A DNA stretch of 38,596 bases, from positions 30,473 through 69,068 of the forward strand of contig VXOI01000007.1 in NCBI GenBank assembly GCA_009840175.1, written 5' to 3'. The number at the start of each line of letters is the position of its first letter. Positions within the stretch are counted from its first letter, which is position 1. This DNA comes from Chloroflexota bacterium. GTDB taxonomy: Bacteria > Chloroflexota > Dehalococcoidia > Lucifugimonadales > UBA3495. The translations under genes were made by a program, and so were the position numbers. Positions 33,080-37,183 of the stretch are shown in pieces. The notes below the pieces were generated by a model. The model searched no databases and was not told the DNA's origin. It was given only the letters and a program-made list of their open reading frames with translations.

Positions 33080-33179
33080 CGATGTTGTTGTGCGCCGCCA
33101 GCGTTGACGGCATTGGGCAAAGAAAGTATGGTATATCCACTTGACGAGACTATGCACAATTGTAATGAAGGAGCGGGAA

Positions 33180-33605
33180 ATGCCCGATCCGGAAGTGAAG
33201 ATTTTCGACTACGACAAGATTGAAATCGGCGAGGAACTGGGCTCCTACGAGTACACCCTCACCCAGGAAATGCTGGACAACTTCCGGGCCTCCATAGACG
33301 ACCCGGATGCGGTGTTTCCTACCTTGGCGGTGAAGCACGACGCCACCGCCTTCGCCATGGTCTACGATGACCAGACCGGCGGCGTCAACGCGGGCAACGA
33401 GGTCGAGTTCTTCAACCCGCCCATCCCGGGCAAGAAGATTCTCGTCACCGGACGCATCGCCGACAAGTACCTGCGCCGCGACAAGCCCTACATGGTCATC
33501 GAGGCCACCGCCATAGACGAAGACGGGCGGCTGCTGGAAAAGCTCCGCACCTACCAGATGAAAAAGCCGGACGAGGTGGGCAAGAAATGGCATCCGCAAA
33601 CATAG
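33180..33605 (+). CDS. MaoC/FAS1-like dehydratase domain protein
   Basis: EIGEELGSYEYTLTQEMLDNFRASIDDPDAVFPTLAVKHDA...FFNPPIPGKKILVTGRIADKY; start refined to ATG 33180 with upstream GGAG. Confidence 0.8.
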   Translation: MPDPEVKIFDYDKIEIGEELGSYEYTLTQEMLDNFRASIDDPDAVFPTLAVKHDATAFAMVYDDQTGGVNAGNEVEFFNPPIPGKKILVTGRIADKYLRRDKPYMVIEATAIDEDGRLLEKLRTYQMKKPDEVGKKWHPQT

Positions 33606-34033: not shown

Positions 34034-34486
34034 ATGCCGCAGTCCTACTGGCACCTGACAGGAAATCTCTGGGCATTGGCCCTGAGCACGGTCATTGCCC
34101 TGTTCTTGCCTGACTTCGGGCCGACAGAGAGAATGGACGGCGGGGTTGGCGTGGTGATACGGGCTACCATGGCTGTCCCGGTGGTGTTCTCTCTGATGTA
34201 CTGGACCGGGCGGCTGATAATCAATCTGACAGAAAAGCTAAAAAAGTGGTGGCTTATGAGCATAATTACGGCAGGCATCGAGCAAGGCATACGGGATGTA
34301 GCCGAGCGGCGAGCCAAAGACATGGCCAAAGATATAGCCAAGAATATGGCCGAAGATATAGCCAAGAATATGGCCAAAGACATGGTCGAGGCGGAGAGGG
34401 AAGAGGTCAAGCAGTTCATGCGAAGCAAGGGCGTTTCGGATGAGGACATTGACGCCTTTTTCCGCAGGGTATCCGATCAAGACTAG
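34034..34486 (+). CDS. Hypothetical membrane protein with a tandem-repeat helix
   Basis: Hydrophobic N-terminal segments; AKDMAKDIAKNMAEDIAKNMAKDM region. Confidence 0.55.
   Translation: MPQSYWHLTGNLWALALSTVIALFLPDFGPTERMDGGVGVVIRATMAVPVVFSLMYWTGRLIINLTEKLKKWWLMSIITAGIEQGIRDVAERRAKDMAKDIAKNMAEDIAKNMAKDMVEAEREEVKQFMRSKGVSDEDIDAFFRRVSDQD
34313..34384 (+). repeat. 12-bp coding tandem repeat (6 units)
   Basis: gccaaagacatg gccaaagatata gccaagaatatg gccgaagatata gccaagaatatg gccaaagacatg. Confidence 0.9.
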
Positions 34487-34516: not shown

Positions 34517-34906
34517 ATGACAACCACCACCGACTGGGTAAGCGAACTATTCGCTGACGCGCGTGAGCTATACGCCGACGCCCTGGAAATGCTCGCACAG
34601 AGCAGACTCCGTAATGCTGCGGAAAAGGCTTGGTGCGCCACCAAGAGGTCAACTGATGCCATGGTGTTGGCCCGGACCGGACGCGAACCGCAATCTGGAG
34701 GCGGGGCGCGGCGGGCATTGCTGAGAATGAGAAACGATGGCCCGGAATTTGTGGCCTTCCACGGTGAGTACAGCATCCGGTCGGAACTTCTGCACATCAA
34801 TTGCTTCTACGACGGCAATTGCGAGCCGGAGGCCGACATGACTGCCCTCATCCGCGCCACCGACTTATACATTCAGGACGCAATCAATCTGGCGGCGGCA
34901 GAGTAA
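34517..34906 (+). CDS. HEPN/PaREP1-like protein
   Basis: RELYADALEMLAQSRLRNAAEKAWCATKRSTDAMVLARTG...LLHINCFYDGNCEPE. Confidence 0.6.
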   Translation: MTTTTDWVSELFADARELYADALEMLAQSRLRNAAEKAWCATKRSTDAMVLARTGREPQSGGGARRALLRMRNDGPEFVAFHGEYSIRSELLHINCFYDGNCEPEADMTALIRATDLYIQDAINLAAAE

Positions 34907-34947
34907 CCGTCGTTGCGAATTCAACAAATCCAAGCGAGAGAAGAAAT

Positions 34948-35232
34948 ATGCCAGGCTCCGAACACGGCAAGGTCGAAGCGGAAATCGTATATTGTGTGGC
35001 TTGAGGCTACTTCCCGGTCGCCACGTGGCTGGCGATGGAGTTCTTCAAGTCCGACGCCCCGGGAGACATAGCCATCAAGATGACCCCCTCTGACCGGGGA
35101 CGCCTTGAGGTGTACCTCGACGGCGAGGTCATCTTCGACCGCAAGACCGACGGCGGCTTTCCCGACCTCGGCAAGGTCAACGAACTCAAGATGACCATAG
35201 CCGAGAAGCTCTTCGACCTCGAAGACGCCTAG
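34948..35232 (+). CDS. SelW/Rdx-family selenoprotein (in-frame TGA read as selenocysteine at 35002-35004)
   Basis: ATG 34948: MPGSEHGKVEAEIVYCVA-U-GYFPVATWLAMEFFKSDAPGDIAIKMTPSDRGRLEVYLDGEVIFDRKTDGGFPDLGKVNELKMTIAEKLFDLEDA; CxxU motif; no other in-frame stop; Rdx-like sequence on both sides of the TGA. Confidence 0.92.
35002..35036 (+). promoter_or_regulatory. Putative bacterial SECIS element
   Basis: UGA then hairpin UCGCCA-CGUGGC-UGGCGA (35018-35035, plus outer G-U); loop begins 20 nt after UGA and has G at loop position 2. Confidence 0.75.
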
Positions 35233-35275: not shown

Positions 35276-35313
35276 ATTCCCTCTCCCTCTGGGAGAGGGT
35301 TGGGGTGAGGGCG
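35276..35313. repeat. Family A palindromic repeat
   Basis: attccctctccctctgggagagggttggggtgagggcg. Confidence 0.88.
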
Positions 35314-36059: not shown

Positions 36060-37022
36060 ATGCCCACCATCCTCATAACCGGCCCCGCCGGCGGCGGCAA
36101 GACCAGCTTCGCCTACGGCCTGCTGGCTCGCCTGCGCGATGCCGGACGCTCCGCCGCCTACTGCAAGACCTTCTCGCCGACGCCCGGCACCGACGACGAC
36201 CACGCCTTTGCTGCTGAGGTCCTGGCCGACGCGCTGGGCATCGCCGTCGGCCCGTCGCCGCGTCCTCTCGACGGCGATGTTGCCGAGGCCGCTGCCGCCA
36301 TCGCAGAACTGCGCCGCCAGCACGACACCGTCATCATCGAAGTCGCCGACGGCTCGCCCGTGGCCGAACTGGCCGCCGCCGTTGATGCCCGCGTGATAGA
36401 AGTGCGCGCCTACACCGCAGGGCAAGACTGGGGGGTGGCCGCAGACGAAGCCGCCGGACACTGGGGCGCGCGGCTGGATATGCTGGTAATTAACGCTGTG
36501 CCCCCCTATCGCCAGGACATCGTTTCGGAGGGAGAAGCCGAATCCTGGGCCGAGGTGGATGCCCTGGTCATTCCCGAGAGCCGCGTCATGCTCGCCCCCA
36601 CCGTGGCCCAGATCGGAGAGCACCTAGACGCCGTCTGGCCCCTGGAGCCGGTCAACGCCGATGCCATCGTGGAGCGGTTCCTGATTGGCGGCAACATCAT
36701 GGACAACGGCCCCACCTACTACGGACGCTACCACAATCAGGCCGTCATCACCCGCGCCCAGCGCCCTGACATCCAGTTGGCCAGTATGCTCCCGCAGACA
36801 ACCTGCCTCGTGCTCACCGGCCCCGGCGAACCCACCGAGTACGTCAAGGCCGAGGCCCGCGAGCGTGACATCCCCCTGCTGCAAGTCTTCATGCCCACCA
36901 TCGAAGCCGCCGAGGCCCTCGACCACCTGATAGACACCGCCACGCCCCACAGCCTGGCCAAGGTCCGCCACTACGCCGCCCTCCTGCAACAGCACGCGGC
37001 CCCCGACTGGCTGATAGGCTGA
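36060..37022 (+). CDS. P-loop BioD/Pta-N-terminal-like protein with DRTGG-like domain
   Basis: MPTILITGPAGGGKTSFAYGLLARLRDAG, AFAAEVLADALGI, NIMDNGPTYYGRYHNQAVITRAQRPDIQLASM. Confidence 0.8.
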   Translation: MPTILITGPAGGGKTSFAYGLLARLRDAGRSAAYCKTFSPTPGTDDDHAFAAEVLADALGIAVGPSPRPLDGDVAEAAAAIAELRRQHDTVIIEVADGSPVAELAAAVDARVIEVRAYTAGQDWGVAADEAAGHWGARLDMLVINAVPPYRQDIVSEGEAESWAEVDALVIPESRVMLAPTVAQIGEHLDAVWPLEPVNADAIVERFLIGGNIMDNGPTYYGRYHNQAVITRAQRPDIQLASMLPQTTCLVLTGPGEPTEYVKAEARERDIPLLQVFMPTIEAAEALDHLIDTATPHSLAKVRHYAALLQQHAAPDWLIG

Positions 37023-37058: not shown

Positions 37059-37183
37059 CAGGACGATTGCAAAGTCCACCCTGTCACTCTGAGCGAAGCG
37101 AAGAGTCCTTTTCCCGCAGCCAGGGATTCTTCGCTGCGCTCAGAATGACAGGCACCCACTACAGCTACTTTGCAATCGTCCTG
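37059..37183. mobile_element. MITE-like nested palindrome (125 bp)
   Basis: Outer inverted repeats CAGGACGATTGCAAAGT/ACTTTGCAATCGTCCTG; inner CTGTCACTCTGAGCGAAGCGAAGAGTCC versus GGGATTCTTCGCTGCGCTCAGAATGACAG. Confidence 0.8.

Follow-up and report, generated by a model that had tools for sequence, protein, structure and literature searches.

In the window, by which we mean the whole stretch of 38,596 nucleotides analysed, an ORF finder reports two neighbouring fragments, 34801..35004 and 35035..35232. The question is whether these are separate short genes or the two parts of a single gene whose internal TGA is read as selenocysteine (Sec), as an earlier note on this DNA had proposed. From the analysis described here we conclude with high confidence that 34948-35232 is a SelW-like (Rdx) selenoprotein gene, in which UGA is decoded as Sec via SECIS and SelB. 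The computational checks put forward in that note all favour its reading. The features of the locus are:

34948..35232, plus strand: selW-like (Rdx) gene, predicted 94-residue selenoprotein, Sec at residue 19 (CVAU), stop codon TAG; based on the frame, Pfam/NCBIfam matches and an AlphaFold2 model
35002..35004, plus strand: in-frame TGA, very probably read as Sec, last residue of the CxxU motif; based on TGA in relatives and Cys in homologues
35017..35036, plus strand: predicted bacterial SECIS hairpin, GUCGCCA-CGUGGC-UGGCGAU; based on fold z-score, synonymous constraint and pairing

A single reading frame across the TGA

The two fragments share one frame, as had been recognized in the earlier note: TGA 35002-35004 is the only separator, and 35005-35034 encodes GYFPVATWLA. 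Starting at ATG 34948 (the ORF track starts at TTG 34801), the frame continues to TAG 35230-35232 with the TGA as its sole interruption and comprises 94 residues when the TGA position is counted. For the read-through product, MPGSEHGKVEAEIVYCVA-U-GYFPVATWLAMEFFKSDAPGDIAIKMTPSDRGRLEVYLDGEVIFDRKTDGGFPDLGKVNELKMTIAEKLFDLEDA, the match to Pfam Rdx (PF10262) has an E-value of 2.3e-15 (57 bits, cut-off 22.6), and since this match covers both sides of the TGA, the read-through frame is not due to chance. The cut-off of NCBIfam TIGR02174 (CXXU_selWTH) is also passed (49.4 bits, cut-off 34.2), and both profiles bear out the Rdx (SelW-type) layout that had been claimed.

A rival explanation, in line with the split made by the ORF finder, is that the locus holds two short genes or is a pseudogene whose translation stops at the UGA. 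However, only 18 residues precede the TGA, the Rdx profile bridges the junction, and start, TGA and end are in register in all relatives, making this explanation very unlikely. The conserved register and the purifying selection after the TGA (dN/dS of 0.05-0.36 for the window gene against its relatives) also agree with the earlier argument against a pseudogene; upstream of the TGA many dN/dS values are undefined, the synonymous sites being saturated.

The TGA is present at codon 19 in 20 of 20 close relatives from other assemblies (L055-L074), with identities down to 51%. In the GTDB family of the host, 49 of 50 genomes contain Rdx, and each of the 112 matches in them has an in-frame TGA (one has two); this count refers to TGA codons anywhere inside the match, and the exact position was read in about 30 of them. 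Cys occupies the TGA column in L075-L111 and in proteobacterial and actinobacterial homologues, those of Photobacterium, Nocardia, Erwinia and Bosea among them, and writing U as C leaves this column without any variation in the alignment. Homologues thus carry Cys or Sec at this position. Open (Cys) Rdx genes occur elsewhere in the order, as is expected of a protein family in which Sec and Cys are exchanged. No relatives of the gene were detected in the viral contigs searched, showing that it is not a phage gene.

The TGA could also have arisen in a Cys-type (CxxC) Rdx gene by a sequencing or assembly error or by a recent nonsense mutation, since a single base change converts TGC or TGT to TGA, and the assembly is split over 268 contigs. 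This explanation is refuted by the independent relatives with the same TGA, and the purifying selection downstream of the TGA as well as the strong synonymous constraint directly 3′ of it (see below) also argue against it; we give it next to no probability.

The SECIS hairpin

The strongest independent evidence for the Sec reading is the SECIS hairpin, which was absent from the earlier note. Its apical loop CGUGGC begins 20 nt past the UGA and has G as second base, and folding of 34999-35050 resulted in a z-score of -2.70. Synonymous codon choice was compared in 19 aligned genes using pairs with the same amino acid: at codons 24-29 the same-codon rate is 0.87 (0.33 expected), whereas before and after this stretch it is close to background (0.52 vs 0.46-0.47 expected). 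Over the constrained codons the hairpin has the consensus GUCGCCA-CGUGGY-UGGCGAY, with pairing in 92.5% of cells over the 19 sequences, exceeding every slid version. Covariation among orthologues is weak because their stem hardly varies, the test revealing one pair with both-sided change, which was equalled by shuffles; some relatives fold differently by energy alone. A both-sided change with pairing kept is found in the paralogue L002 (UGCCA-CGUGGA-UGGCA): the pair is U-A there and C-G or G-C in most orthologues. In the distant Chloroflexota L145 and L161 another hairpin, CCAGGC-CGUGA-GCCUGG, was read by eye, its loop also starting about 20 nt after the UGA. Since Rfam at the gathering threshold gave no match in the window, support for the SECIS comes from comparison. 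The bacterial SECIS is described as a hairpin just 3′ of the UGA with a small apical loop containing G (PMC1088965), and the hairpin at 35017-35036 is in agreement with this description. In addition, the third base of codon 18 is T in each of the 19 aligned sequences, whichever amino acid the codon encodes, so that the base preceding the UGA may matter as well.

Host genome, Sec machinery and gene neighbourhood

The host is a SAR202-type genome (Chloroflexota, Dehalococcoidia), the best relatives belonging to the SAR202 cluster and to Dehalococcoidia with a top identity of 93%. Its assembly comprises 4.3 Mb in 268 contigs with an estimated contamination of 6.1%. The Sec machinery was found in this same genome: a tRNA-Sec with anticodon TCA (UCA), SelA (538.9 bits), SelB (338 bits, with neighbouring pieces of its frame) and SelD (381.6 bits). 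These genes are located on contigs other than that of the selW-like gene. Among 250 genomes of the order, 202 have SelA, showing that the trait is one of the lineage and not of a stray contig; given this order-wide distribution, a contaminant origin of the Sec genes is unlikely.

If TGA were reassigned throughout the genome (code 4 or 25), the residue at the TGA position would be Trp or Gly instead of Sec, and most genes inspected near the selW-like gene do end with TAG or TAA. However, TGA is an ordinary stop elsewhere, since the DRTGG-domain gene at 36060-37022 stops at TGA and its relatives are of similar length, and general reassignment is therefore unlikely. The SelA and SelB matches contain no inner TGA, tRNA-Sec and SelB are present, and the homologue column shows Cys and never Trp or Gly. 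Taken together, this leaves reassignment with a very small probability, and Sec remains the preferred reading.

Further TGA-containing genes were observed. The selD gene (1501-2421 of L021, minus strand, contig C105) has an in-frame TGA at the active site, HCAGUAAKL, and is, judged from its sequence, a further Sec-type protein of this genome. A second Rdx selenoprotein gene of the genome is located at 1432-1731 of L002 (minus strand, contig C4); it encodes EITYCVSUQHLGTATWMANEFF..., and its SECIS core, TGCCACGTGGATGGCA, is nearly the same as that of the window gene. In a relative genome (G201) the Rdx gene at 1498-1722 of L113 has two in-frame TGAs (ITY-U-QQ-U-NYKPRA), resulting in a UxxU motif, which is not among the motifs given for the Rdx/SelW-like family in a 2026 review (PMC13188914). 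Because no second UxxU case was found in 393 genomes and L142, the nearest relative of L113, has CxxU, a base error in L113 is possible. A search of the window by GC3 for further genes with a TGA inside them gave no convincing candidate; because it also missed the present selW-like gene, other cases may have escaped it.

The neighbouring genes are:

33141-33605, plus strand: upstream gene without Pfam match, conserved neighbour in L055-L070
33587-34009, plus strand: upstream MaoC-like dehydratase gene (MaoC_dehydratas, E-value 1.3e-11), conserved neighbour in L055-L070
35259..36029, plus strand: downstream pentapeptide-repeat protein gene, conserved neighbour

The pentapeptide-repeat gene lies downstream in all of L055-L073 but L066, where the contig ends, and the DRTGG-domain gene is kept nearby in most of L055-L073. 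In many relatives about 40-70 nt separate the MaoC-like gene from the selW-like gene. The window has two extra ORFs between them, at 34034-34486 and 34517-34906, the second of which matches PaREP1; part of the first is present in the same-genus relative L055. From its position, the conserved MaoC-like neighbour hints at a link to acyl-CoA or related hydratase metabolism. Repeats were also observed in the window. A GGGAGAGGGTTGGGGTGAGGG-like repeat occurs in eight copies on both strands (at 1028, 4184, 4941, 8897, 9507, 26848, 31385 and 35291), with 0 copies expected by chance, and the copy at 35291 lies just after the selW-like gene. An inverted pair of a CATTCTGAGCGAAGCGAAGAATC-type repeat (translation CHSERSEES) is located at 37085-37147, upstream of an isopropylmalate dehydrogenase gene.

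Predicted fold, proposed role and known SelW-like proteins

An AlphaFold2 run on an alignment of 32 relatives yielded a model with a mean pLDDT of 89.4, in which a strand and a helix are followed by three strands and a final helix. CVAU (residues 16-19) is placed between strand 1 (9-16) and helix 1 (22-35), so that the TGA codes for the final position of CxxC/U, within the active-site loop. The best PDB matches are all SelW-related, with TM-scores of up to 0.76 to 2fa8, 2obk, 2p0g and 2oka; mouse SelW (2npb) is found lower in the list with 0.73. The product is thus predicted to have the SelW, thioredoxin-like fold.

In the proposed mechanism, SelB bound to the mRNA hairpin 3′ of the UGA would bring Sec-tRNA-Sec to UGA 35002-35004, resulting in a thioredoxin-like protein of 94 residues whose redox site, CVAU, sits in the loop that joins the first strand to the first helix. 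By analogy with SelW, this protein may act as a thiol/selenol oxidoreductase: Sec19 would attack a substrate disulfide, a peroxide or a glutathionylated partner, and Cys16 would then resolve the selenenylsulfide. Sec insertion itself, the redox activity of the product and its substrate are properties that we infer from the family. A further proposal, which we regard as rather doubtful, is that SelW in the lineage of SAR202-type Chloroflexota exists in the Sec form only (none of the 49 Rdx-carrying genomes of the family has a Cys form). A genome would usually have two to three paralogues, and one of these, fixed next to MaoC-like hydratase genes, would serve that pathway as its dedicated redox partner. 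If this were true, acyl-CoA or related metabolism would be in part selenium-dependent in these bacteria. The fixed neighbourhood offers a testable lead on bacterial SelW function, and the gene is a clean case to add to annotation pipelines, which would otherwise split it. Judging from these genomes, a mostly uncultured marine lineage appears to decode UGA as Sec and to keep a Sec-type SelW throughout a family.

The kind of gene is not new. Bacterial SelW-like CxxU proteins have been catalogued since 2005-2008 as the commonest marine selenoproteins: they rank first in abundance among the selenoproteins of the Sargasso Sea, with 48 genes (PMC1088965), and among those of the Global Ocean Sampling data, with 427 genes (PMC2398784). 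A 2026 review lists a SELENOW-like entry with PF10262, CxxU and one Sec (PMC13188914). A literature search, which left out most subscription papers, found no paper on SAR202 and selenoproteins, and the host assignment may therefore be unreported. Our analysis adds that such a gene belongs to SAR202, has a well-defined SECIS and lies in a gene neighbourhood that is conserved.

Likened by description, the Sargasso Sea and Global Ocean Sampling proteins and the SAR202 gene share CxxU and a marine origin. The former are, as presented in the accessible text, metagenome sequences without a named host, whereas here the lineage, the synteny and all of the Sec machinery are linked to a single genome. 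The bacterial SelW-like family (PF10262; TIGR02174) and the SAR202 gene are alike in length, fold, CxxU, SECIS position and bacterial host. By sequence and model, the product has the same fold and family as the solved Cys-type SelW-related proteins of Agrobacterium (2fa8), P. fluorescens (2obk), V. cholerae (2p0g) and P. aeruginosa (2oka). The proteobacterial homologues akin to these carry CxxC, as read in the homologue alignment and not in the PDB entries, and a SECIS is thus not needed there. In contrast to the family at large, the SAR202 clade has a YCV[A/S/P]U-G-Y start, a helix 1 with W[LM]A.EF and a C-terminal helix in which NELKM.IAEK is conserved, and it shares about 30-40% identity with the proteobacterial and actinobacterial forms.
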